DNA of 64,000 nucleotides, taken from contig CAMWNG010000001.1 in NCBI GenBank assembly GCA_947175575.1, forward strand, positions 62,001-126,000, written 5' to 3'. Every line of letters begins with the position of its first letter. Within the stretch, counting starts at the first letter, position 1. The notes beneath the pieces are model-generated. The model did not search any database. It was given only the letters and a program-made list of their open reading frames with translations, and was not told where the DNA came from. Below are positions 1,942 to 35,076 of the stretch, one piece after another. The DNA is from an uncultured Bacteroidales bacterium. Lineage in GTDB: Bacteria; Bacteroidota; Bacteroidia; Bacteroidales; Muribaculaceae. Both the position numbers and the translations under genes were made by a program.

Positions 1942-4584
1942 TTAGAATTCCTGTCCAAGGATGAAGTGGAAATGGCTTCCACCCTTCATTCCGTCCACTT
2001 TGTCGAAGCCGTATGCCCAGTCAATACCCATCATGCCGACCATGGGAAGGAAGATGCGGACACCTGCGCCGGCGGAGCGTTTGAGATCGAATGGATTGAA
2101 CTTGCTGACAGAGGTCCAAGCATTACCGCCTTCGACGAATGTGAGCGCATAAATCGTTGTGGAAGTCTGGAGCATCAGCGGGAAATGGACTTCAAGACCG
2201 AGGCGAGTGTATGCGTAACCTTCACGCCTCCAAGGTGTGAGACTACCGTTGTCATAACCACGCAGGGCGATGGTCTCGGTGGCGTAGGTATAAGAGCCTG
2301 ACATGCCGTCACCGCCGACATAGAAGGTCTCGAACGGCGTTTTGAGATACTTGTTATATGAACCCAGGAGGCCAAAATCGGCGCGGGTCATAAGCACGGG
2401 AGTGTATGTGCCGTCAGCGTTAGCGAGCGGGGTGTATGTACGGCTCTTGAAACGGAGTTTCCAATACTCGATCCATTTGTACAGTTCTTTTTTCGATGCG
2501 GTAGTACCTTCTTCGCTGATAGCCTTCCAATCGCGTTTACCCATGAAGAGCGAAGCCGGAGGAGTGAGCGAGAGGTTAAGTGAGAATGTCGAACCGCTGC
2601 GTGTATAGATAGGATTGTCGATTGAATTGCGTTGCAGTGTCAGACCGAGCACGAGGGCGTTCGATGTACCGTTGCGCATATAGTAAAGATAATCCCAGTT
2701 TTTAAGATAGTACCAGTTATAACCGAGTTCGGCGGTGAATGTGAAATAGTCATCGGGCCACTTGAGGCGTTTACCGAAACCGAGGCTTACACCCACCATC
2801 TGAAGCACCTTGTTGGGGTCGTATGATGCCTGATAGGAGTTCTGATAATAGTCGTTGTAGTAGTTATTATTGTATCCGTATCCATAGCCGTATCCGCCAT
2901 AGTAAGGATTGTAATATCCTCCATTAGCCCACTGAGAATTATAATACGAACTGTTCACGCCTGTCTGACGCGAATAGTAGGCAGAGAGCTGAAGCGAGTT
3001 GGGACGTTTGCCACCGAACCAGGGATCCAAAAATGAGATTGAGTATGCCTGATAATAGCGGGCATTGGTCTGCGCGCTGATGGTAAATGTCTGACCTTCA
3101 CCCTGAGGTATGATTCCCTTATATGTCGAGGGATAGAAGAGATTCTTTATAGAGAAGTTGGTAAACTTGAGCGAGAGCTTGCCGATGATACCGGTCTGGC
3201 CCCAGCCCATCGAGAATTCGATCTGGTCGTTGGCTTTCGACTCAAGATTGAAGATGATATCGACCGTACCGTTCTCTTCATTAGGTTCGGGACGGATGTC
3301 CATGTGTTCAGGGTCGAAATGACCTGTCTGGGCTATTTCGCGTGCAGAACGCATAAGATCCGATTTAGAGAAGAGTTCGCCGGGGCGAACACGAAGTTCG
3401 CGACGGATGACTTTCTCGTACAGACGGTCGTTACCGTTAATGACCACATTATTGATGCGGGCCTGCGGACCTTCGATTATGCGCATCTCAAGTGAAATGC
3501 TGTCGCCTGTGATTTCCTTTTCGATGGGATCAAGGCTATAGAAGAGATAGCCACGGTCCATGTAGAGGTTTGAAACAGCATCCTCGTCCTCGTTAAGGCG
3601 TTTGTTGATGTGTTTCTGGTTGTACACATCACCGGGGTGCATTCCGAGGAACTGATCAAGCACTTCGTTGGGATACAATGTATTCCCTACCCATGTTATA
3701 TCCTTGATATAATATTTGGGGCCTTCGTCCACTGTGATATGAACGTCAACGCGATTGTCAGAAAACTGTGTGACTGAGTCTGCCACGATACGGGCGTCGC
3801 GGTATCCGAGTTCGTTATATTTGGCAAGGATACGATTGAGGTCGTCATCGTAATCTGTGCGTACGAATTTCTTTTGCGAGAATATTTTCAGCAGGTCATT
3901 GTTCTCGTTGGTTTTCTTCATGGCACGCTTGATCTTTGAATCGGAGAGCACTTCGTTGCCTTCGATATAGATCTTGTGTACCTTCATCTTGTCGCGGCGA
4001 TCGACGGCGATGTCAACGATCATCTCGCCGGGAGCAGAGAGATCCTCATGCAGCGTGATATTGACTTTTGCTGAACTGAAACCTTTGTCCTTGAAATACT
4101 TCTCCACAATCATCTGGGCTCGATTCACGATGTTTTGAGTGATCTGATTGCCCTTCATGAGTGCAAGTCGCTCCTGAAGATCCTCACGTTCGCTTTTCTT
4201 CATGCCGTAATAGTTTACCTGCGATATGCGCGGCTGGGTGCGCAGACGAAGTTTGAGCCAAGCCCGGTCGCCCACAACCTTGTCAAGGCTGAACTGAGCC
4301 TGCTGGAAGAGGCCCTGACGCATCAGTCGTTTAGTGGCGTTGGTGATGTCGGGTCCCGGCACGGAGATTCGTTCGCCCACTTTAAGTCCGGCATATCCGA
4401 GGATTATCTGCTCATCATAGTTCGGAGCTCCTTCGACAGTAATGTCGGCAATCTCATAGACGCGGGGCATACCGGTGAACATCACTGCCGGAGCAAAGAT
4501 GGTGTCGGCCGGGGTCTGAGCGGAGAGTTGCGGACCTGTGACTGCAGAGAGGAGAAGTATGGCGGATAGAAGATTGTATCGCAT
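1942..4584 (-). CDS. bamA: BamA outer membrane protein assembly factor (POTRA domains and beta-barrel)
   Basis: POTRA-like repeats, barrel with terminal Phe (HFHFILGQEF); start reassigned to MRYNLLSAILLLSAVTG (cat at 4582-4584). Confidence 0.9.
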   Translation of the reverse strand: MRYNLLSAILLLSAVTGPQLSAQTPADTIFAPAVMFTGMPRVYEIADITVEGAPNYDEQIILGYAGLKVGERISVPGPDITNATKRLMRQGLFQQAQFSLDKVVGDRAWLKLRLRTQPRISQVNYYGMKKSEREDLQERLALMKGNQITQNIVNRAQMIVEKYFKDKGFSSAKVNITLHEDLSAPGEMIVDIAVDRRDKMKVHKIYIEGNEVLSDSKIKRAMKKTNENNDLLKIFSQKKFVRTDYDDDLNRILAKYNELGYRDARIVADSVTQFSDNRVDVHITVDEGPKYYIKDITWVGNTLYPNEVLDQFLGMHPGDVYNQKHINKRLNEDEDAVSNLYMDRGYLFYSLDPIEKEITGDSISLEMRIIEGPQARINNVVINGNDRLYEKVIRRELRVRPGELFSKSDLMRSAREIAQTGHFDPEHMDIRPEPNEENGTVDIIFNLESKANDQIEFSMGWGQTGIIGKLSLKFTNFSIKNLFYPSTYKGIIPQGEGQTFTISAQTNARYYQAYSISFLDPWFGGKRPNSLQLSAYYSRQTGVNSSYYNSQWANGGYYNPYYGGYGYGYGYNNNYYNDYYQNSYQASYDPNKVLQMVGVSLGFGKRLKWPDDYFTFTAELGYNWYYLKNWDYLYYMRNGTSNALVLGLTLQRNSIDNPIYTRSGSTFSLNLSLTPPASLFMGKRDWKAISEEGTTASKKELYKWIEYWKLRFKSRTYTPLANADGTYTPVLMTRADFGLLGSYNKYLKTPFETFYVGGDGMSGSYTYATETIALRGYDNGSLTPWRREGYAYTRLGLEVHFPLMLQTSTTIYALTFVEGGNAWTSVSKFNPFDLKRSAGAGVRIFLPMVGMMGIDWAYGFDKVDGMKGGSHFHFILGQEF

Positions 4585-22341: not shown

Positions 22342-23133
22342 TCAGATCCGTTCGACATCTGTGGAGCGCACCCATGCTGCCGAGGAGCCGTTGATGCTTA
22401 TTTTATACCATCTGGGTGAAACCGGATCATCAGGTGTAGAAACAGAATCTATTATCTCAATTTTTGTACCTTCATGGAGGGGAACAACCTTATCAGTCTG
22501 TTTAGGCTGACGAGGCACCGAATTCAGAAGAGTGCCGGGTACGGCCACAATAGCTTCGTTATGGCTGTTGCGACGCGAAGCTGCATCTGCCGCCACAAAT
22601 ATAGAATATATGGTCACTATTGCCAACACAATAGCTCCGAAGAACCCTACTTTACGCATCATTACACCGCCGGAGAAAATGTATAATGCAAGCGAGCTGC
22701 AACACAGGACAAACAGAACGAATGCTGTCCATGCCCATGCATTGGCTGACATACTCTCTACCATTCCCTGATGAGCCAGCGAAAGGAAAGATCGGTTATC
22801 AGCAGGTTTATCCTCCAGTCGAGAGTTCACGAAGTCAAGATTGGTACGGGCATCGGTATGCGACGGATTAAGCCGGAGTGCACGTTCATAAGCCAATACG
22901 GCCTGTGCGGTGTGTCCAGCACGATAATGAGCGTTGCCGAGATTATAATATAATTCTGGATTCGGACCCTCGGAATACAATAGATCGGTGTAAAGCGCGA
23001 TAGCTTTGGTAAACTCCTCGTGATTGTAAGCCGAATCAGCCTCCTGAGGTGTAACTGCATAGGCGGACGATGTGGCTGCAAAAGCAACCGTAAGGCTAAA
23101 TATGAATTTTTTAATTGTCCTCATAATCTGCAA
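22342..23133 (-). CDS. BatE-like TPR protein with C-terminal SH3-like domain
   Basis: TPR (YNLGNAHYRAGHTAQAVLAYERALRLNPSH), two TMs, C-terminal SH3-like segment; last gene of the Bat cluster. Confidence 0.8.
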   Translation of the reverse strand: MQIMRTIKKFIFSLTVAFAATSSAYAVTPQEADSAYNHEEFTKAIALYTDLLYSEGPNPELYYNLGNAHYRAGHTAQAVLAYERALRLNPSHTDARTNLDFVNSRLEDKPADNRSFLSLAHQGMVESMSANAWAWTAFVLFVLCCSSLALYIFSGGVMMRKVGFFGAIVLAIVTIYSIFVAADAASRRNSHNEAIVAVPGTLLNSVPRQPKQTDKVVPLHEGTKIEIIDSVSTPDDPVSPRWYKISINGSSAAWVRSTDVERI

Positions 23134-23139
23134 GAGTTT

Positions 23140-25014
23140 TTACTTATGCTTTTTAGCTTCTTCGATTTCCTTCACGGCAACAGATGCCTGTGTGTAAAGA
23201 TCCTGCATCGCCTTTTCAGAATCGGAAGGCGTGAAGCGGGCCATCTCACATTGGTCAAGAACATCCAGGACAGATGTGATAGTCTGTTCCCCTACTCCGG
23301 CCCGGGCAAGTTTCTCGGAAATTGCGGCACTTATCAGCTGAGACTGTGGCATAGCCAGTTTATCACTGATATATCCTTTTAGCGCACTGGCGAGTTCGGT
23401 ATAGAACTTCTGACTGTCATGGTTCTTCATACAAGCCGCGGCCGATTTCAGACGTTTTTCAGCCACACGTCCCGCTTTCGCCTCCTTACGTCCGGTAACA
23501 TCCGATGAAAGACGTATATAACGACGGTATGCGATTACGGCTATCACAAGGCTAATGAACACCAGACCCCAGAGGCTCCAGTACCACCATCGCCCGAAAA
23601 TCGTGTCCGGTGTTCGAGCAATGGTTGAGGGAAGAGAATGAATGTGAACTATATCGTTCATCTCGGCATCAATCGCTTTTTGTTCGGAAGCGACAGATAC
23701 GGTTGAACCTCGTTCGACTTTTACATCAAAGGTTTCGGTCGAGAGAGTTTCGTAATGTCCGGTCTGTAAATTGAAATAGCTGAATGTCTGAGCCGGAATC
23801 GCATAATTACCCATTTCCTGCGGTACAAGAGGATAATCAACGCGATAAGTACCGGCGTATGTCTGCCCTGAAACACGGGCATTAACATCAGTTTTGGCTG
23901 AATATTTGTCAAATGTTACCGGGAATTCGACCGTGGGGACGGTAAGATATTTTACATTACCAGATCCTTTGAAAATCAACGAGTAAGTTGCGGATTCGTT
24001 GGTCCGAAGGATTTCCGGAGAAAGTGATGATTCAAGGGAGAAGGAACCTACGGCGCCACAGAAGTCGGCGGGGCGTGGCTCCGGAAGAGCCTTGACATGC
24101 AGCGTGGCGGTGGTCATAGGAGTGGTATATGAATAATCATCATATGTGGCTGTGCCGAACCACCCCATGCTCATGGTACCGGTTTGTTCGCGTATTTTGA
24201 GAGTATATACACCGGATGTTACCTTTAGCTCACCTGCTTTTTGAGGGAACAATAGTACCCGAGAGAGTTCGTAGGTAATATAATTCTTACCGTTGTAGTT
24301 CTCAATTTGTCCTTCAGGATTAGCCTCCAGATCTTCTGAGAGAAATCCTTCATAGACAGGTGTGCGTGGGACAGCCTCAAGATTCAATGAGAATTTATGA
24401 CTCGCAGGACGATATAATTTTGTGATAGCAATTACACCTTCCTGTTCATAAACTGAGGATTTAGAGAAAAATACCCTTACAAAGAAATCCTTCGCCGAAG
24501 CTGTTGAGTTGGCTGCAGTAGTACCGGTGGCCGAAGCACCAGGAGTATTCCCCGAAGGACGGCCGTTGCCATAGTTTCCGGCGGATGGGTCAGAATCCGG
24601 TGGGAGGATCTCAAATGAAGACGAATTGGAGGAATAAGTCTTTCCTCCGACATTTATCGAAACCGGTGGAACGGTCACTTTACCTTCAGAACGTGCGCGA
24701 TAGACACAGGTAAGGTCTATTATAACCAGACTTGTCCTTTTTCCGTTTATGTATGTCTCCTGTTGTTGAGAAGAGGTAGAGTTGGGACCGCTCAAGAGTC
24801 GGCATCCTTCAAGTTCAGGAGCTTTAGGCATCGTGATATCCCTCGTCGATTCGTTTTCAAGAGTGAGTCGGAACGTGAGTGGAAAACTTTGGTTGGCTAT
24901 CACGTTCTGACGCGGGAGAAGCTGAAATTTGACCTCCGCCTGCACTGACACAGGCAGGAGAATGGTCATCAGAAGCAGGGTCAAATATGTGAATAGTGAA
25001 ACTCTCTTAGTCAT
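23140..25014 (-). CDS. BatD family protein
   Basis: Signal peptide, Ig-like extracytoplasmic region, TM and cytoplasmic tail; position in Bat operon. Confidence 0.85.
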   Translation of the reverse strand: MTKRVSLFTYLTLLLMTILLPVSVQAEVKFQLLPRQNVIANQSFPLTFRLTLENESTRDITMPKAPELEGCRLLSGPNSTSSQQQETYINGKRTSLVIIDLTCVYRARSEGKVTVPPVSINVGGKTYSSNSSSFEILPPDSDPSAGNYGNGRPSGNTPGASATGTTAANSTASAKDFFVRVFFSKSSVYEQEGVIAITKLYRPASHKFSLNLEAVPRTPVYEGFLSEDLEANPEGQIENYNGKNYITYELSRVLLFPQKAGELKVTSGVYTLKIREQTGTMSMGWFGTATYDDYSYTTPMTTATLHVKALPEPRPADFCGAVGSFSLESSLSPEILRTNESATYSLIFKGSGNVKYLTVPTVEFPVTFDKYSAKTDVNARVSGQTYAGTYRVDYPLVPQEMGNYAIPAQTFSYFNLQTGHYETLSTETFDVKVERGSTVSVASEQKAIDAEMNDIVHIHSLPSTIARTPDTIFGRWWYWSLWGLVFISLVIAVIAYRRYIRLSSDVTGRKEAKAGRVAEKRLKSAAACMKNHDSQKFYTELASALKGYISDKLAMPQSQLISAAISEKLARAGVGEQTITSVLDVLDQCEMARFTPSDSEKAMQDLYTQASVAVKEIEEAKKHK

Positions 25015-25025
25015 GTCGGTTAAAA

Positions 25026-25748
25026 TTACCAGGGTTTGTCAGTGGTGCGTCGGCCGGCAGGCTGTTCCTGCTGTTGAGCTTTGCGACGAGTGGCATTCTC
25101 TTTGTTCTGCATAGCCTGCAGCAGCTGTTCGGCACTCTGTGTCATCTGTTGTTGCTGAGGTTGCTGTTGTTGTTCTTGCTGCTGATCCTGTTGATTCTGT
25201 TGATCCTGCTGCTGCTCGTCATTTTTATCCTGCTGATCTTGTTGATCCTGCTTGTCCTGATTCTGATCCTGCTCTTCTTTCTTTTTGAGTGCGAGAAGGA
25301 GGTTCTGACGACATTCCTTGTTCTCGTTTTCAATCCTTAGAGAGCCTTTATACATGCTTATGGCGCGATCGAGTTCATCGTCATTGAACGCCATATTGCC
25401 CAGGTTGTAATAGGATTTGGCAGCAAGAGTATTGTTGGATTTCAAATTTGCAATATCCTCAAAAATCTTACGGGCTGCCACTCGCGGATCGTTCTGAGTG
25501 CCTTTGTTGTCATCAGATGCAAGTTGGGTCAACGCAAGCGCCTTATTGTACAATGCGTATTGATAGGAGGGATTCACCGCAAGAGCCTTTTCATAACATT
25601 CCAATGCCTCATGATATTTTTCCTCGGCATAGAGTTTGTTGCCTTCGACGACAAGATTACGTTCTGTCTTTGTCGAAGACTGAGTATCAGCTGCAGACAT
25701 CGATAGTGCGACGAATGCTCCGAATAATATTAATGCAAATTTTTTCAT
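25026..25748 (-). CDS. BatC-like TPR protein with Gln/Asp-rich C-terminal tract
   Basis: TPR repeats then QDQNQDKQDQQDQQDKNDEQQQDQQNQQDQQQEQQQQPQQQQ. Confidence 0.82.
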   Translation of the reverse strand: MKKFALILFGAFVALSMSAADTQSSTKTERNLVVEGNKLYAEEKYHEALECYEKALAVNPSYQYALYNKALALTQLASDDNKGTQNDPRVAARKIFEDIANLKSNNTLAAKSYYNLGNMAFNDDELDRAISMYKGSLRIENENKECRQNLLLALKKKEEQDQNQDKQDQQDQQDKNDEQQQDQQNQQDQQQEQQQQPQQQQMTQSAEQLLQAMQNKENATRRKAQQQEQPAGRRTTDKPW

Positions 25749-25759
25749 GTAACGGAAAT

Positions 25760-26797
25760 TTATTTACGTGTGAAAAAATTTATTTTCTTCAACAGTGTAT
25801 TCTTACGTTCAAGCACGAACACATCGATAACCAGAAATATCAACGCGATCCAAGCGAAAGCCGGGAATTGCTCGGCTCCTGAGCTGTATGTCACATGTTT
25901 GAATTCTGATTTCTGAAGTTTCTCAAGCTGAGCCACAAGTTTGTCGAGAGCGTCAGATGATGCGCCATTGACAAAAATTCCGTTTCCTGCTGCAGCAATT
26001 TCAGCCGCGAGTCCTTCGTTGAGCGTGGAAAGAACCATCTGGCCGTTTTGGTCAGAGATGTATTCGCCCCGGCGCCCTTCGCGTGGAATCGGCATTCCCT
26101 TGGCGGTGCCGAGTCCTATTACATCGACCTGAATATCGCGTTCTGCCGCAGCTTTGGCAGCTTCTACGGCATCACCTTCGTGATCTTCAGCGTCGGTGAT
26201 GAGAATGATCGCCTTATGAATATTCTCATCGGGCGAAAAACCGTTAGTTGCCATTGAGATAGCTTCAGCGACCGATGTTCCCTGATAGGCCATCATCGAG
26301 GGAGTAAGTTCATTGAAATACATGCGTGCCGCATTGAAGTCAGTTGTCATCGGGAACTGAACTTTAGCTGAGCCGGCGAAAACTACCAGTCCCACCTTGT
26401 CATTGGTCAGACGTCCGAACAACTTTTCCATAAGAAGGCGCGCACGGTCGATTCGCGGAGTGCCGTCGGGATTATCTGTCGAGGACGCTAACATGGAGTT
26501 TGAAACGTCAAATGCGACCATCACTTCTATGCCGGCCACAGTTTCGTTCTGTTCCTTTGATCCAGCCCTTGGACGTGCGAGCACAAAGATCAGCGCTGTA
26601 AGCGCGATAAGACGTAGCGTAAGTTTTATGGCGGGTTTGTAGGGTGATGCTTCAGGCATGAGATGAGCGATGACACCCGGTTGCCCGAATTTTGCCAACC
26701 GGCGTTTTCGCGCGCGACGTCCGAGCCAGAACGCGAGAACAAACAGCGGCACCAGCCACAGAAGATATAATAGATATGGATTAGCGAAATCAAACAT
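25760..26797 (-). CDS. VWA domain membrane protein, BatB-like
   Basis: MIDAS DVSNSMLAS, VWA fold, terminal TM helices. Confidence 0.88.
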   Translation of the reverse strand: MFDFANPYLLYLLWLVPLFVLAFWLGRRARKRRLAKFGQPGVIAHLMPEASPYKPAIKLTLRLIALTALIFVLARPRAGSKEQNETVAGIEVMVAFDVSNSMLASSTDNPDGTPRIDRARLLMEKLFGRLTNDKVGLVVFAGSAKVQFPMTTDFNAARMYFNELTPSMMAYQGTSVAEAISMATNGFSPDENIHKAIILITDAEDHEGDAVEAAKAAAERDIQVDVIGLGTAKGMPIPREGRRGEYISDQNGQMVLSTLNEGLAAEIAAAGNGIFVNGASSDALDKLVAQLEKLQKSEFKHVTYSSGAEQFPAFAWIALIFLVIDVFVLERKNTLLKKINFFTRK

Positions 26798-26807
26798 AGT
26801 TTATAGT

Positions 26808-27794
26808 TTATGGAATAGGACGGAAGAACATCCGGCGCAGTAACATCTCGAATGCGAAAAGACCGAACGCAAGCCAGGCCCAAAGCATGTAGTTGTCCTC
26901 GGTGTGAGAAAACATCTTTACATCCATACGGGTCTTTTCAAGAGCGTCAATCTCCGCAAATATGTTCTGAAGCGCGGCATTATCCGTGGCACGGAAATAT
27001 TTACCGCCGGTAATATTCGCGATGGCGTTAAGTGTGGCTTCGTCAATCTCTACTTTCTGTTTCTGAAATTCTATGCGACCGAATACGTTGCGCACCGGAT
27101 AATCAGCCATGCCGTTTGTACCGATTCCGACAGTATAGATTTTCACACCAAGTTCTTTCGCAACTTCGGCTGCGGAGAGCGGCGCTACAATACCGGTGTT
27201 ATTCGAACCGTCGGTAAGCAGGATGATACTTTTGGATTTTGCCTGGCCTTCTTTCAGTCGATTCAGAGAGGTGGCGATACCGTCACCGATGGCCGTACCG
27301 TCCTCGAGCATACCGATCTGAACGCCTTCCAGATAATTCAGAAGTTGGGTGCGGTCAATCGTCATAGGCATACCGGTAAGACTCTCACCCGCGAACAGTA
27401 CAAGGCCGAGATTGTCGTTCTCACGTCCTTGAACAAATGCCGATGCCACAGTCTTCGCCGCACCGAAACGGTCCGGTTGAAAATCACGGGCATACATCGA
27501 ACTTGAAATATCAAGTGCGAGAACTATATCGGTGCCTTGGGTAGACGATGTGCTCCAGCGGTCGCTCATCTGAGGACGTGCGAGCACAACGATCAGACCG
27601 CCGATAGCACCCATCCGCAACGCAAAGAGAAAATGTCTCAGATATTGCTTCCAGGAGCGAGGCATATCCGCGAAGGCGGATGTACTGGACATCCCCATCG
27701 AAGGATAGGAGTTGCGCTGATGAAAAATGTACCAGACTGTAAGAATCACGGGCACAACCAGCAGCCACAGAATATTGGGATGTGCAAATTGCAT
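26808..27794 (-). CDS. VWA domain membrane protein, BatA-like
   Basis: MIDAS DISSSMYARDFQPDR, LLTDGSNNTG, TM helices. Confidence 0.88.
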   Translation of the reverse strand: MQFAHPNILWLLVVPVILTVWYIFHQRNSYPSMGMSSTSAFADMPRSWKQYLRHFLFALRMGAIGGLIVVLARPQMSDRWSTSSTQGTDIVLALDISSSMYARDFQPDRFGAAKTVASAFVQGRENDNLGLVLFAGESLTGMPMTIDRTQLLNYLEGVQIGMLEDGTAIGDGIATSLNRLKEGQAKSKSIILLTDGSNNTGIVAPLSAAEVAKELGVKIYTVGIGTNGMADYPVRNVFGRIEFQKQKVEIDEATLNAIANITGGKYFRATDNAALQNIFAEIDALEKTRMDVKMFSHTEDNYMLWAWLAFGLFAFEMLLRRMFFRPIP

Positions 27795-27800
27795 AAGTTA

Positions 27801-28760
27801 CTATTGCTTGTTTTCTTTAGTTTTCGGTTTGCCGTCACCTTCGTTTTCGGAGACTTCCGGAGCAGGTTTAGTGTCTTCGACAAACTGTACGACATTATTG
27901 AATGTCTTGATATTATCATCGGGAAGGGGCCGGATATTGGCGAATTTGACAAAGTCGGCCAGTTCAAGAATCTGCTTGATGCGCGGTTGATTGTCTCGTG
28001 TGAGGGGATTGCTGCGGAGTGTCTGCAAAATCTGTGTAGTGGACATTTCCATCGCATATATGCCGAAACGACGCTCGAGATATGTGCGCAGAATGTCAAC
28101 AAGATTAGTATAGAACTCTTTCTCACGTCCACTTTCGGCCAGTTTCTTTTCACGTAATCGACCGAGTTCAGCCATAGCCGCCTCATAAGGATCGACAGGC
28201 TTGACATGACGTACGATAAGGGTACCGTGCTTCCGATAGATGAGGAAAAGACTCACGCCGACTCCGGCAAGAGCGATACCGAGGAGTGCCCAGAAAATCC
28301 AGTCGGGAACATAATCATACCATTTGCGTGGAGGATTGACCGTTCCTGCCATCGGATTAATGGTTTCGAGCGAATCAAGTTCCACGGGCATTATCTTTAG
28401 AGAAAGCGCGTTACTGAATGCTGTATCGGAGCCATAGACATATCGGAACGGCGGAAAAGTGACTGATCCGGGTTCGAATGCCTGAATTCTCAACTTATAT
28501 TTGAATCCCCCCGGGAACGTATCAGCCTCGACTGACGAAAAGTCGAAAGGTCCGGCTTCTGCACCGGCTTCCGGAAGGTCGATGAATACGCCACGCTTTT
28601 CGGCATCAGCAATATCAACGGTAATCTGAGCGTAATCGCCCATCTCAACGGAGGCAGAGTCAATCGACGCTGTCACACGCGGAGCTACCGCATGAACCGT
28701 GAATGCCGGAACAAGCAATACGCCGGCCAGAAATTTTTTTATATGAAATCTATTCATCAC
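27801..28760 (-). CDS. Bat-cluster membrane protein, BatD-like ectodomain with cytoplasmic tail
   Basis: Signal peptide, beta-rich ectodomain, single TM (WIFWALLGIALAGVGVSLFLIY), helical C-terminus. Confidence 0.7.
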   Translation of the reverse strand: MMNRFHIKKFLAGVLLVPAFTVHAVAPRVTASIDSASVEMGDYAQITVDIADAEKRGVFIDLPEAGAEAGPFDFSSVEADTFPGGFKYKLRIQAFEPGSVTFPPFRYVYGSDTAFSNALSLKIMPVELDSLETINPMAGTVNPPRKWYDYVPDWIFWALLGIALAGVGVSLFLIYRKHGTLIVRHVKPVDPYEAAMAELGRLREKKLAESGREKEFYTNLVDILRTYLERRFGIYAMEMSTTQILQTLRSNPLTRDNQPRIKQILELADFVKFANIRPLPDDNIKTFNNVVQFVEDTKPAPEVSENEGDGKPKTKENKQ

Positions 28761-29626
28761 ACACGTTTCTTGAACAGGCCCATCAGGGCTTTTACATAAT
28801 CCTCATCCGTTGCGACAGAGGTAAAATTCACCCTACTCTTCTTGAGTTGTTCCGACATAGCTTGCTGACGGTCATACCACCATTTTGCGTAAGCTTTGCG
28901 CACACGCGACGAACCGGTATCCACCCATCGGGTAGCGCCGCTTTCCAGATCGGTAAGGCGCATCAAGCCTACATCAGGAAGTTGAGCGTCACGACGGTCG
29001 TAGACCTGAACGGCCATCACGTCATGTTTGTTTCGGGCGAGAGACAATGCCTGCCGATACTCATGACTGTCGATAAAATCAGATATGATGAATACCGTGG
29101 CGCGTTTGCGCATCGCATCAGTGAAATAGCGCAAGGCTACCGATAGGTCGGTACCCTTACTTTCGGGTTCGAAGTTCAACAGTTCGCGTATTATCAGGAG
29201 AATATGCTTCTTGCCTTTTTTCGGCGGAATGAACTTTTCCACTTTGTCTGAGAAGAAAAGCGCACCGATTTTGTCATTGTTCTGACTTGCCGAGAATGCC
29301 AGCGTAGCAGCAATTTCGGCTATCATATCGCGTTTTTCAACCCCGACAGCGCCGAACTCGCGCGATCCGCTGACGTCTACCATGAGCATGACAGTCAGTT
29401 CACGCTCTTCTTCGAAAACTTTTACGAAAGGTTTGTTATGTCGCGCGGTGACATTCCAGTCAATGTCGCGGATGTCATCACCATATTGGTACTCGCGGAC
29501 TTCGGAGAACATCATGCCGCGTCCTTTGAAGGCGGAGTGGTATTCCCCGGCAAAAATATTCTGCGACAGTCCCCGGGTCTTTATCTCGATCTTGCGGACT
29601 TTCTTCAGAAGTTCATTAGCATCCAT
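28757..29626 (-). CDS. DUF58 domain-containing protein
   Basis: GMMFSEVREYQYGDDIRDIDWNVTARHNKPFVKVFEEERELTVMLMVDVSGS. Confidence 0.92.
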   Translation of the reverse strand: MDANELLKKVRKIEIKTRGLSQNIFAGEYHSAFKGRGMMFSEVREYQYGDDIRDIDWNVTARHNKPFVKVFEEERELTVMLMVDVSGSREFGAVGVEKRDMIAEIAATLAFSASQNNDKIGALFFSDKVEKFIPPKKGKKHILLIIRELLNFEPESKGTDLSVALRYFTDAMRKRATVFIISDFIDSHEYRQALSLARNKHDVMAVQVYDRRDAQLPDVGLMRLTDLESGATRWVDTGSSRVRKAYAKWWYDRQQAMSEQLKKSRVNFTSVATDEDYVKALMGLFKKRV

Positions 29627-29653
29627 TTGACACCGCTGTAATTAATTCAATAA

Positions 29654-30649
29654 TCAAGGAACTTGAACTTTGTCAAGAATCTCAGTTATGATTTCATCGG
29701 TAGTGATGTTGTTAGCCTCGGCCTCATAGGTTACACCGATACGATGACGGAGAACATCGTGGCATACAGCAATCACATCCTCCGGCACCACATAGCCGCG
29801 ACCGTGTATGAACGCGTATGCGCGAGCTGCGCGGGCAAGCGATATCGACGCACGCGGCGATGCCCCGAAAGCAATGATGCCTGTAAGATCATTAAGCCCG
29901 AAATCTGCCGGGAAACGTGTGGCGAAAACGATGTCCACGATATAACGCTCGATCTTTTCATCCACATATATCTGTTCTACTACTTTCTGAGCCTCGATAA
30001 TTTCCTCAGGCTTGAGCAGGGGCTGAACTTTGCGTTTTTCGTTAGAGATATTCTGTCGGATGATCAGTTTCTCTTCTTCTTTCGAAGGATAACCGATAAT
30101 CACTTTCATGAGGAATCGGTCGACCTGCGCTTCGGGAAGCGGATAGGTGCCTTCCTGTTCGATAGGATTCTGGGTAGCCATCACCAGGAAGGGTTCATCA
30201 AGCGGGAAAGTGCTCTCGCCGATGGTAACCTGACGTTCCTGCATGGCCTCCAGAAGTGCGGACTGCACTTTTGCGGGAGCACGGTTTATTTCATCCGCAA
30301 GTACGAAGTTGGCGAAAATCGGGCCTTTCTTGACCTGGAAAGTCTCGTTTTTTACGCTATATACCATCGTACCGATGACGTCGGCCGGAAGCAAGTCAGG
30401 TGTAAACTGGATACGACTATATTTCGCATCGATAAGCTGTGCGAGAGTCTTGATAGCGAGAGTCTTGGCCAGACCGGGGACACCTTCGAGAAGCACATGC
30501 CCATTGCTGAGCAATGCTATGAGCAAAGATTCCACGAGATGTTTCTGTCCGACGATGGTCTGATCCATGCCGTGGGTTATGATGTTGATGAAGTCGCTCT
30601 TAGAGGCAACCAGAGCGTTGAGATCGCGAATGTTTACAGAGTCGCTCAT
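29654..30649 (-). CDS. MoxR family AAA ATPase
   Basis: GHVLLEGVPGLAKTLAIKTLA, FVLADEINRAPAKVQSALLEAMQERQVTI, MATQNPIEQEGTYPLPEAQVDRF. Confidence 0.95.
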   Translation of the reverse strand: MSDSVNIRDLNALVASKSDFINIITHGMDQTIVGQKHLVESLLIALLSNGHVLLEGVPGLAKTLAIKTLAQLIDAKYSRIQFTPDLLPADVIGTMVYSVKNETFQVKKGPIFANFVLADEINRAPAKVQSALLEAMQERQVTIGESTFPLDEPFLVMATQNPIEQEGTYPLPEAQVDRFLMKVIIGYPSKEEEKLIIRQNISNEKRKVQPLLKPEEIIEAQKVVEQIYVDEKIERYIVDIVFATRFPADFGLNDLTGIIAFGASPRASISLARAARAYAFIHGRGYVVPEDVIAVCHDVLRHRIGVTYEAEANNITTDEIITEILDKVQVP

Positions 30650-30838: not shown

Positions 30839-30873
30839 TAACACGTCGTCGCTGTTCGGGCGACGACGTGTTA
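30839..30873 (-). terminator. Terminator downstream of the HU-LysM gene
   Basis: taacacgtcgtcgc / gcgacgacgtgtta, 14-bp perfect stem, 7-nt loop, A-rich + flank (U-rich on minus transcript). Confidence 0.85.
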
Positions 30874-30885
30874 TCAGTTTCATAA

Positions 30886-32043
30886 TCAGAATTTGTATTT
30901 ACGAGACAACTCTCCGATGAGTTTTGAGGCCTTGGCCGCGGTGGCCTGAGGTGTCTCTTCCTCAAAAGTCGATTTGTCAGGTATCAGAACTTTCGTTCCG
31001 GGGGCTATCTTGTTCGGATTGCCAAGCCCTGGATTCGCTTCATATATGAAAATCCAATAGTTTTTAACCCCATAATGTTCTTTTGCAAGAATGGCCAGAT
31101 ATCTTTTATTGGTAACGGTGTCGTAAACCGGTTCTGCCTTCTTGGATGATTCCGGCGCGTCTGTCACGACCGTTTCAGGCTCATTGATCGCCGTTCGGAT
31201 CTCCGGCGTCTCTTCAGGCATCTGTTCATCAGGCATAGGGGTAGTTTCGGTCATTTCAGCAGGTGTTTCTACAACTACTTCCTGACTTTCCTCAACAGTT
31301 TCAGTCTCAGGATATTCGAAATCTTCAGGCAGGCTGTATGCGCCCATCGCTTTTCCTGCAAAATATCCTCCGCAGAGGCCTACTATCAGCCCGATCAATA
31401 TACCTGCGACTAACCACAGCGTACGGTTCTGTTCTGGAGAGGCCGGAGCATCCTGTTCTTCTTCAATTTCTTCAGGGATCGGTTCGTGTTTTAACTCGCC
31501 GGCTGGCTCTTCATCCTCGGGCTCGAGCACCGGTGCCGGAACATCTTCCGATACAGCGGTATTTTCACATTCATCTGACACTTCAGACGTGTTATTTTCC
31601 GTGTCCTCCGGAACACTGACGGTTATATCCTCAGCTGCAACATCCGGAGTCTGGTCGGGCGTTGCGGTCAATGGAATCTCAGCGGGTTCGGCCACCATCT
31701 CCGAACGAAATTCGTTGGGAATCTCGTCGCGGGCGTCATCAGCCGGTAATACTGAAATTTCCTGTTCGGCACCATCGTTAAGTTCTACCGCTTCAAAGGC
31801 TGCAAACGGCTCGTTCAGGCATGCGGCCAGTTCAGGTTCAGGTCTGAAAAGAACCGGATGGGAAATATCGGCACCTCTGACGAATGCTCCGAGTCCCTTG
31901 ATCTCAACTATTTCACCGGAGCTGAGTCCCTGTTCTACCGTTGCGAAAAGTTCATGCAGAAATCTGCGTACATCAGCAGGCGAAATGCCTGTGGCCACCG
32001 AGATTTTGGAAATCAGTGAAGGAAGATTAATTGGCTGATTCAT
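30886..32043 (-). CDS. HU-like DNA-binding domain - acidic linker - TM helix - LysM fusion protein
   Basis: N-term MNQPINLPSLISKISVATGISPADVRRFLHELFATVEQGLSSGEIVEIKGLGAFVRG (HU-like); Glu/Pro-rich linker; TM TLWLVAGILIGLIVGLCGGYFAG; LysM YLAILAKEHYGVKNYWIFIYEANPGLGNPNKIAPGTKVLIPD. Confidence 0.82.
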   Translation of the reverse strand: MNQPINLPSLISKISVATGISPADVRRFLHELFATVEQGLSSGEIVEIKGLGAFVRGADISHPVLFRPEPELAACLNEPFAAFEAVELNDGAEQEISVLPADDARDEIPNEFRSEMVAEPAEIPLTATPDQTPDVAAEDITVSVPEDTENNTSEVSDECENTAVSEDVPAPVLEPEDEEPAGELKHEPIPEEIEEEQDAPASPEQNRTLWLVAGILIGLIVGLCGGYFAGKAMGAYSLPEDFEYPETETVEESQEVVVETPAEMTETTPMPDEQMPEETPEIRTAINEPETVVTDAPESSKKAEPVYDTVTNKRYLAILAKEHYGVKNYWIFIYEANPGLGNPNKIAPGTKVLIPDKSTFEEETPQATAAKASKLIGELSRKYKF

Positions 32044-32317
32044 CCTTAAAAAGCTTTTTGCGCAACATGGCTGCAGGTGTGAATACTAAAGATATCTGTG
32101 GCGGCAACAACATTCGCTTTCCGGATACATGGTCCGTTACCACTTCCTCATCATTTTTGACGGCCGCGAATGTTCCGAATGACGGGATAGCCACATGGTC
32201 TCCGTCTGTCGCCGCTTTGCTAACGGCTGAGACAAAAGCTGTAAGCAGATTCCGGACTTCCCCGGAATCTATATCCAGCCTTGCCGAAATATTCTGTACA
32301 AGTGTTTTTGTATCCAT
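32027..32317 (-). CDS. HU family DNA-binding protein
   Basis: 96 aa HU-like fold pattern; overlaps the start of the HU-LysM gene by 17 nt. Confidence 0.85.
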   Translation of the reverse strand: MDTKTLVQNISARLDIDSGEVRNLLTAFVSAVSKAATDGDHVAIPSFGTFAAVKNDEEVVTDHVSGKRMLLPPQISLVFTPAAMLRKKLFKDESAN

Positions 32318-32366: not shown

Positions 32367-33638
32367 TTAGCGGTTGCAGTTTATGATTATCGAATGGTCA
32401 AGTCTTGTTGAGTACAAGCGGCTACGCCGTTCGCTGCGCACGATGGATTCTACCGGACTATATGCCGCGACATGAACGGTGTCATGAGAGACCGATGATG
32501 CATTTATACGGTCGAGCACACACATAAGACGAGCCCTTTTGGCTCGTTCCTCAGCGTCAGTGAACAACGATCTCCTCACAGCACGAATAGGAATCACTTC
32601 GTTGATTATTATTCCGGCTTTCTTATATTGGTATCCCTGCTTATAAACACTCCGCAGACATTCGGTAGCCATAGCCACCAGACCGATGGTGTCACAGGTG
32701 GCTTCCGGCAACTGACGGAATGCGGAATTATAATATTGTGGCAGATCTTTACGCATGGAGTTCGTATGAAGGAACACCGATATCGATACTGCGGCACAAC
32801 CCTGGGCGCGCAACTTGCGCGACACTATAGTAGCGAACAAGGCGACCGCCTGACGCAAATCCTCGAAATTTTCAAGCATACGTCCGAACGAACGGGAACA
32901 AATCATCTGCTTTTTGGCCGTTTCTTCCTGTTCGACCGAAATGCAGGCATCGCCATTGAGTTCACGCCAGGTCCGCTCACCTACTATATTCAGCATACGC
33001 TTTACTCCCGCCTGATCCATATCTGCAAAATCAAGTGCAGTACGTACTCCTATATTGTCGAAGTGACGCCGCAGACGGCGCCCTACTCCCCACACATCCT
33101 TTATCGGTGTAAGGCTCAAAGCTTTGCGACGGCGCTCTTCGGAGTCTATAATCGCACAGGAGCGATAGGCCGGATACTTTTTTGCGAATCGCGCGGCCAC
33201 CTTTGCAAGAGTTTTGGTAGATGCTATACCTAAGGAGGTGGGAATACCTGTACAACGGCGTATTTTCCGCACGATCTCCCTACCTAATACTTCAAGTTCA
33301 GAACCGTTAACTCCATCGAGATAAAGAAACGCCTCGTCAATCGAATATATTTCAATTTCGGGTACGATAGACCCGAGTATGGCCATTACGCGGGAGGACA
33401 TATCACCATAAAGCCTGTGATTCCCTGAAAGTGCCCTGACTCCTTGCCTCAGACACATCTCCTTTATCTGAAAAAAAGGATCACCACGTTTGATGCCGAG
33501 GGCTTTGGCCTCGTTTGAGAGCGCAACCACACATCCGTCGTTATTAGATAATACAACGACAGGACGGGCACGAAGCGAAGGGTCAAAAACACGTTCGCAC
33601 GACACGAAAAAGTTATTGCAATCGATCAGGCCAACCAT
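32367..33638 (-). CDS. umuC: Y-family DNA polymerase, UmuC
   Basis: [44 protein letters not shown]. Confidence 0.93.
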
Positions 33639-33647
33639 ACATCTCTT

Positions 33648-34121
33648 TTATTCGTCGGTCTTGCGCTTCTTGGATCGGTTGCGCCGATGCTGTTTGATGG
33701 AATGTGTGACTACCCCCCATACTTCAAATTCGCGGTCGGGAGTTACGAGAATGGGATCGAATGATTCATTTGACGGCACGAGCCATACCTGATCTTTTAC
33801 GAGTGACAAGCGTTTGAGTGTAAACTCGCCGTCGATACAGCAGACGGCCATATCTCCGTCCTTGGGTTCAAGCGAACGATCGATCACGAGCAGATCTCCG
33901 TCCTCGATTCCGTCTCCTATCATGGATTCTCCCGACACTCTGGCATAGAAAGTTGATGCAGGATGCTGCACAAGCTCATGATTGAGATCTATGGCTTCCG
34001 AAAGATAATCCTGTGCAGGAGAGGGAAATCCGGCCTGAATTCCCATATCAGCTAACGGAAGGCGGACTTGCCCGGTGAGTTCCGGGCGCAAGATATGTAT
34101 CATAATCTCACCTCGCTTCAT
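33648..34121 (-). CDS. umuD: S24 family peptidase UmuD
   Basis: QAGFPSPAQDYLSEAIDLN cleavage region, SGESMIGDGIEDGDLLVIDRS, DGEFTLKRL. Confidence 0.92.
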   Translation of the reverse strand: MKRGEIMIHILRPELTGQVRLPLADMGIQAGFPSPAQDYLSEAIDLNHELVQHPASTFYARVSGESMIGDGIEDGDLLVIDRSLEPKDGDMAVCCIDGEFTLKRLSLVKDQVWLVPSNESFDPILVTPDREFEVWGVVTHSIKQHRRNRSKKRKTDE

Positions 34122-34128
34122 GCCGTGG

Positions 34129-35076
34129 TCATTTAAGATATTCCCTGACATGGAAGCGTGGGCGATGTTTTACCTCGAGAAATATTTTACCGATGTATTC
34201 GCCTACTACGCCTAATGACATTAGAATCAGACCACCGAGAAGCCATACGGAAAGAATCAATGAAGTCCAACCGGTGACTGTCCGATGGGTCAGATAGGAG
34301 GTGAGCGCCCATATTCCTACTATAATGTCAAGGAACACGATGATGATTCCCAAGGCAAAAATCATGCGCATGGGCCGCGATGTAAACGATGTCACCCCGT
34401 CTATGGAGAGAGCCAGAAGTTTGCTGAAATTGTATTTTGTTTCTCCGGCGAGACGTGGATTGCGGGTGAAATACACGATGTCGTAAGGCAACCCGAGACT
34501 CTGGACCACTCCGCGCAGAAACATATTACGCTCATCATATCGCTTGAGCATATTGATTGCGCGTCGGCTCATCAGACGGAATTCCGAATGATCGTATAGC
34601 ACTTTCACTCCCATTGCGCGCTGAATTCTGTAAAACAGATGTGCTGATGTGCGCTTGAACCAGGTATCGCTGTCGCGGCGGGCTCTCACACCATAAACGA
34701 TGTCCGCTCCACCCACGAACTTTTTAACCATTTCTATTATAGCCTCGGGGTCATCCTGAAGATCAGCATCGATTGTTACAGCACAATCAGCATCATCCGA
34801 AGCAATCTCAAGACCGCAGATCATAGCAGGCTGTTGTCCGGCATTCGCCATCAGGGAGATTCCCCGTACACTTTTGTCGGAACTGTTTGCCCGGCGTACC
34901 ATCTCCCACGTGGCGTCAGAGGAACAATCATCCACAAAAAGCAGATATGATTCCGACGAAATCAGGTTCATGGCTATCATACGGGCACGGAGGTCACCCA
35001 ACACCCTGAGGGTGTCGGGCAACACCTCCTGCTCGTTAAAGCACGGAACGATTATGGCCAGCCGCGGAGAGGTCAT
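34129..35076 (-). CDS. Glycosyltransferase family 2, GtrB/DPM1-like with C-terminal TM helices
   Basis: LAIIVPCFNEQEVLPDTL, DADLQDDPEAI, two C-terminal TMs. Confidence 0.9.
   Translation of the reverse strand: MTSPRLAIIVPCFNEQEVLPDTLRVLGDLRARMIAMNLISSESYLLFVDDCSSDATWEMVRRANSSDKSVRGISLMANAGQQPAMICGLEIASDDADCAVTIDADLQDDPEAIIEMVKKFVGGADIVYGVRARRDSDTWFKRTSAHLFYRIQRAMGVKVLYDHSEFRLMSRRAINMLKRYDERNMFLRGVVQSLGLPYDIVYFTRNPRLAGETKYNFSKLLALSIDGVTSFTSRPMRMIFALGIIIVFLDIIVGIWALTSYLTHRTVTGWTSLILSVWLLGGLILMSLGVVGEYIGKIFLEVKHRPRFHVREYLK

Follow-up and report, generated by a model that had tools for sequence, protein, structure and literature searches.

A Bacteroidales gene pair joining HU and LysM folds by a transmembrane helix, with eroded HU arms in a Muribaculaceae lineage: a candidate wall-anchored docking module

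Two overlapping genes in the stretch of Muribaculaceae DNA analysed here (64,000 nucleotides, hereafter the window) encode a stand-alone HU-family protein, HU1, and a single-pass membrane protein, HU2-TM-LysM, which links a second HU-fold domain to a LysM-fold domain. This architecture and the pairing of the two genes were confirmed and are general beyond the window. The arm by which HU proteins grip DNA is deleted in HU2, and that of HU1 is acidic. The original prediction had read the pair as a chromosome-to-cell-wall tether. We propose instead, as a reading whose chances we judge to be evenly balanced, that the window pair would be a trans-envelope HU heterodimer acting as a wall-anchored protein dock, in which HU-like binding to DNA is slight or absent, and that its ancestor gripped DNA.

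In the proposed arrangement, HU1 would pair with the N-terminal domain of HU2 as an HU-type heterodimer at the inner membrane, facing the cytoplasm. From there a long acidic disordered tether of HU2 would lead to the transmembrane (TM) helix, and a further tether from the helix to a LysM end in the periplasm, which would most likely hold peptidoglycan. The ancestral two-armed Bacteroidales heterodimer probably gripped DNA, joining nucleoid to wall. In the window's Muribaculaceae lineage the HU2 arm was deleted and the HU1 arm lost both its basic charge and its intercalating proline, and the heterodimer is now most likely a wall-anchored docking module, as are the tandem HU domains in CCDC81-type proteins. 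How chromosome, membrane and wall are connected is poorly known in Bacteroidota. If the tether is true, the pair would be a simple mechanical link between chromosome and wall; if it is false, the pair would show HU domains put to use as protein docks in a bacterium, in parallel with ciliary CCDC81.

Domain architecture and topology

Both open reading frames were rechecked, and their coordinates, strand, lengths (385 and 96 aa) and 17-nt overlap are as first described. The features of the pair are the following:

32027..32317, minus strand: HU1, stand-alone 96-aa HU-family protein
30886..32043, minus strand: HU2-TM-LysM, 385-aa single-pass membrane protein
31774..32043, minus strand: HU2 domain, HU dimerisation fold (aa 1-90)
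31849..31881, minus strand: site of the deleted beta-arm in HU2 (aa 55-65, VRGADISHPVL), from comparison of arm lengths
31432..31758, minus strand: acidic/proline linker, disordered, predicted cytoplasmic (aa 96-204)
31357..31413, minus strand: transmembrane core (aa 211-229, LVAGILIGLIVGLCGGYFA)
31135..31335, minus strand: acidic/proline linker, predicted periplasmic (aa 237-303), from the AlphaFold2 model and composition
30976..31131, minus strand: LysM-fold domain (aa 305-356)
30895..30951, minus strand: C-terminal helix after LysM (aa 365-383), from the AlphaFold2 model

The order HU-fold domain, acidic linker, TM helix, second acidic linker and LysM-fold domain is borne out by the Pfam HU match, Foldseek, Kyte-Doolittle hydropathy and an AlphaFold2 model of the 385-aa protein built on a 61-row family alignment. 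Both proteins exceed the cut-off of the Pfam family Bac_DNA_binding (PF00216, 22.4 bits), HU1 with 49.1 bits and HU2 with 29.1 bits, the latter match covering aa 9-54 only. In the model, the first 90 residues of HU2 adopt the H-H-E-E-E-H fold of HU (pLDDT about 87-98) and find HU proteins as their best PDB matches with Foldseek; the HU fold anticipated at the N-terminus is thus present.

A single Glu/Pro-rich linker of about 170 residues had been described. Its acidic, proline-rich character holds, but it is split into two stretches that flank the TM helix: 109 aa before it (32% D/E, 14% P, net -32) and 64 aa after it (net -19), both modelled with pLDDT about 50. The TM segment itself is the only one, with a Kyte-Doolittle mean of 2.25 where no other hydropathy window of the protein rises above 1.2, and AlphaFold2 places one long helix there. 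Basic residues are more frequent on the N side of the TM helix in 64 of 75 homologues and on the C side in 4, so that HU is predicted to be cytoplasmic and LysM periplasmic; the N-in topology first put forward is supported as a prediction.

Family spread and coupling of the two genes

When the conservation of the gene pair was surveyed, it was found to recur in more than 100 loci across Bacteroidales, among them Bacteroides, Parabacteroides, Barnesiella, Paludibacter and Muribaculaceae. Relatives of the 385-aa protein were found across the window's genus, and the protein is present in all 10 sampled genomes of the same family, the window's genome included. About 85 of 393 Bacteroidales genomes (counted from the table) show a match at E<=1e-20, while among the listed genomes from outside the order none gave a match better than about 1e-12, and these matches were confined to the HU or LysM part. 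Cultured carriers include Bacteroides finegoldii and Parabacteroides distasonis, where the annotation of each gene reads just 'HU family DNA-binding protein'. As the two-gene system is widespread and cultured Bacteroides and Parabacteroides from the gut carry it, the tether idea is directly testable. The open papers searched contained no previous account of an HU-TM-LysM pair, though one may exist elsewhere, and nothing relevant on HU together with LysM or SPOR.

Other origins were considered and rejected. Chance juxtaposition of the domains does not agree with the recurrence of both gene pair and architecture in so many loci. For phage cargo, only one weak phage match was retrieved, on an unannotated record. 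For plasmid cargo, the 3 matches from plasmid collections were partial (22-24% coverage), and 2 of them lie in a chromosome-like rimO-MoxR context.

The stop of HU1 and the start of HU2 overlap in 85 of the 104 loci with separate genes, and the genes are at most 30 nt apart in 102 of them. Moreover, in-frame HU1-HU2-TM-LysM fusions occur in two lineages:

L051:1570-2847, fused gene, Muribaculaceae
L058:4170-5516, fused gene, Muribaculaceae
L094:4713-6029, fused gene, Porphyromonas
L107:4722-6122, fused gene, Porphyromonas

The L051 fusion (aa 1-191) was folded with AlphaFold2 on an alignment of HU1 rows and the four natural fusions, in which HU2 coverage is thin; it yielded one compact two-HU unit (pLDDT 92.6, pTM 0.84) where the fold of HU1 is visible. 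Taken together, gene overlap, natural fusions and this compact model make an HU1-HU2 heterodimer likely, so that the coupling and heterodimerisation originally suggested for the 96-aa HU are probable.

Erosion of the HU arms

HU grips DNA by a 28-residue beta-arm, the tip proline of which intercalates. Such arms are not found on both subunits of the window pair: HU1 has 28 residues and HU2 only 11. With its arm cut down in this way, HU2 is the dimerisation half of HU only, and it carries a net charge of -8. The HU1 arm is full-length, with a net charge of -1 and a histidine at the tip column; the basic arm with an intercalating proline, found in HU1 of all 70 two-armed relatives, is absent from the window HU1. 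The original prediction had counted the lack of a DNA-binding arm in the N-terminal domain as an outcome against it; the arm is missing, and with the HU1 arm as it is the claimed DNA binding is not supported here. It had noticed neither the loss of the HU2 arm nor the acidity of the HU1 arm, nor the frequent adjacency to MoxR/Bat genes described below.

We compared the arms over 109 loci. The HU1 arm has 26-28 residues in all of them. The HU2 arm has 28 residues in 70 loci and 4-21 residues in the other 39, which include the window; since the short arm is common to 39 loci, a sequencing or assembly artefact was rejected as its source. Where the HU2 arm is intact, the HU1 tip proline is present in 70 loci out of 70 and the HU1 arm charge ranges from +3 to +7. 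Where it is short, the proline is found in 4 of 39 loci, two of these carriers being Porphyromonas fusions whose local alignment is uncertain, and the charge ranges from -3 to +1, with one arm at +5. When the arm columns are left out of the tree, about four changes are needed to account for the short HU2 arm. HU1 changed in the same direction in 2.9 of 3 independent pairs on average and in none in the opposite direction (3-4 pairs), the two Porphyromonas fusions having been assigned manually to the state without proline; with only 3-4 independent losses, a sign test cannot reach significance. Judged from these alignments, HU2 arm loss and HU1 arm decay go together in about four lineages. One member of the window's family (locus L165) still has both arms, so that the loss occurred within the family. 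These losses constitute a natural set of DNA-competent and probably DNA-incompetent versions of one complex.

These data bear directly on a chromosome-to-cell-wall tether in the window's lineage too, according to which a one-armed heterodimer would bind DNA, perhaps weakly or site-specifically, with LysM on peptidoglycan. HU folds in both proteins agree with it, as does the existence of two-armed relatives such as Bacteroides finegoldii, which keeps the two arms whole and has a basic HU1 arm. The HU1 arm of the window is also full-length and, with the conserved residues K54, E57 and PP72-73 in the arm region, probably still does something specific, which could be an unusual form of DNA binding. 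This has to be set against the deleted HU2 arm, the net -1 HU1 arm without proline, the position of the net -8 HU2 domain beside a net -32 linker, and the two canonical HU proteins of the same genome, which retain arms of +5 and +4. We regard this tether as unlikely. As the DNA-gripping features are gone in both partners, it is doubtful for the window member and a dock appears more likely, whereas a DNA-to-wall tether is plausible for the two-armed relatives in view of their arms.

Likeness to other HU proteins

The docking reading also draws on the structural matches of the fused HU1-HU2 model. Its top PDB matches are chains of doublet microtubules (8snb, 8v3l, 9e78 and 8g2z), which span both HU domains; the resemblance is at the fold level only, with 13-15% identity, and the matched chains are presumed CCDC81 homologues. 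HU monomers rank behind or among these chains, and chains of the Mycoplasma gliding G1-ATPase (9io5) also rank high. In the Tetrahymena doublet, the CCDC81 homologue IJ34 stabilises CFAP52 (PMC10105768). The presumed CCDC81-type tandem HU proteins of ciliary doublet microtubules (8snb, 8v3l, 8g2z) resemble the fused model in both HU domains and offer a case of use in protein docking; unlike the window pair, they are eukaryotic and have neither TM helix nor LysM.

An HU-SPOR precedent in Bacteroidetes was reportedly described by Burroughs et al. in their 2017 work on the HU superfamily. The window's genome also encodes a protein of this kind, HU-CCDC81_bac_1/bac_2-TM-SPOR (locus L145, G000:C67, about 2577-3335), scoring 75.0 bits for CCDC81_bac_1, 55.7 for CCDC81_bac_2 and 20.8 for SPOR, which just misses the cut-off of 21. 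Like the LysM pair, it has a pair of HU domains in the cytoplasm, crosses the membrane once and carries a domain of wall-binding type beyond it, but it is one polypeptide ending in SPOR, whereas the LysM pair consists of two overlapping genes with long acidic linkers. In the window pair the CCDC81_bac domains stay below cut-off (HU1, 16.7 against 26 for PF18174; HU2, 15.7 against 35 for PF18175), PF18175 being matched at E<=0.01 by 26 of 61 family members, and no SPOR match was found with Pfam in the 385-aa protein, where the LysM fold takes its place. Since both occur in one genome, the LysM pair represents a separate design that exists in parallel with the SPOR protein. A broader scenario, in which a Bacteroidales-wide chromosome-peptidoglycan HU heterodimer, separate from the SPOR version, would have been rewired to docking in Muribaculaceae, and in a few lineages besides, as the DNA-binding features of the two arms disappeared in a coordinated way, is held only tentatively and remains rather doubtful.

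Compared with HU/IHF proteins (PF00216; E. coli HU alpha-beta, IHF), the pair has the same HU fold, a full-length HU1 and an expected heterodimer. The likeness is closest for the two-armed relatives, whose HU1 is basic with a tip proline. The window pair departs from them in being membrane-tethered, in lacking the HU2 arm and in having an acidic HU1 arm without proline.

The LysM-fold domain

The LysM fold expected at the C-terminus is present in the AlphaFold2 model (pLDDT 93-98) and superposes on the LysM domain of E. coli Kbp (YgaU) with an rmsd of 1.3 A over 54 residues in Foldseek. The NCBIfam PRK11198 LysM model matches the window protein at 3.5e-6, with a score below its equivalog cut-off, and matches 56 of 61 family members at E<=1e-3. 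Kbp is thus the nearest LysM protein in both sequence and fold, but it is a K+-binding BON-LysM protein, whereas the window protein is a membrane HU fusion. The fold suggests that the domain most likely holds peptidoglycan.

The domain might alternatively bind another ligand or a protein, given that the nearest solved structures are Kbp and contractile-injection baseplate LysM. Sequence and Foldseek matches indeed comprise Kbp and contractile-injection LysM chains, and the Pfam LysM score of the window protein falls below the gathering cut-off (12.6 against 20.9). When a LysM is predicted to lie in the periplasm of a Gram-negative cell, however, its ligand is usually peptidoglycan, and a Bacteroides homologue comes near the Pfam LysM cut-off (20.1 against 20.9). 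We consider a ligand other than peptidoglycan decidedly improbable.

In a Prevotella (oral taxon 299, L181:5697-7359), the LysM-like C-terminus has diverged and lacks the YWxxIY motif, and both HU arms are intact.

Genomic neighbourhood

Downstream of the pair, the window contains two further features:

30839..30873, minus strand: very strong intrinsic terminator (z -5.1) directly behind HU2, with a 14-bp stem followed by a T-rich tail
22342..30649, minus strand: complete bat operon (MoxR, DUF58, unnamed, BatA/VWA, VWA, TPR, BatD, TPR), downstream context outside the pair

The adjacency of MoxR-Bat genes to the pair is conserved in many Bacteroidales families without being universal. Of 64 informative related loci, 22 have the start of MoxR no more than 700 bp downstream, and MoxR is near the pair in 40 of 69 genome loci from many families, divergent two-armed ones included. 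The gene order in Bacteroides and Parabacteroides runs ftsY-rimO-HU1-HU2-moxR-DUF58-(BatD)-VWA-VWA-TPR. Such arrangements fit an envelope factor of the MoxR/Bat system, where the HU heterodimer would recruit, or be remodelled by, MoxR-VWA and LysM would place the machine at the wall. In the window, however, the terminator parts HU2 from MoxR, and the adjacency is absent in 23 of 32 short-arm related loci. In Leptospira, a member of another phylum, neither a growth nor a stress phenotype followed from bat deletion (PMC3557215); in Riemerella, MoxR affects stress tolerance (PMC11834572). A role in the MoxR/Bat system seems distinctly unlikely.

The upstream context varies with the arms. RimO is near 49 of 70 two-armed loci vs 3 of 38 short-arm loci, and short-arm loci have umuDC (13/36) or proS (20/36) upstream. 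The presence of umuDC there, together with the topology and a nucleic-acid-binding fold on the cytoplasmic side, would suit a ToxR-like membrane-bound regulator in which the HU pair alters transcription in response to wall fragments sensed by LysM. Yet HU is not a sequence-specific activator domain and the DNA-binding features are eroded in the window lineage, which leaves such a regulator very improbable.

In the window, HU1 is preceded by a UmuC/UmuD-like SOS pair (32367-34151) at a distance of about 50 nt, and no terminator is predicted between them. As the same layout is seen in the 13 short-arm loci mentioned above, the HU pair may be read together with the SOS operon.
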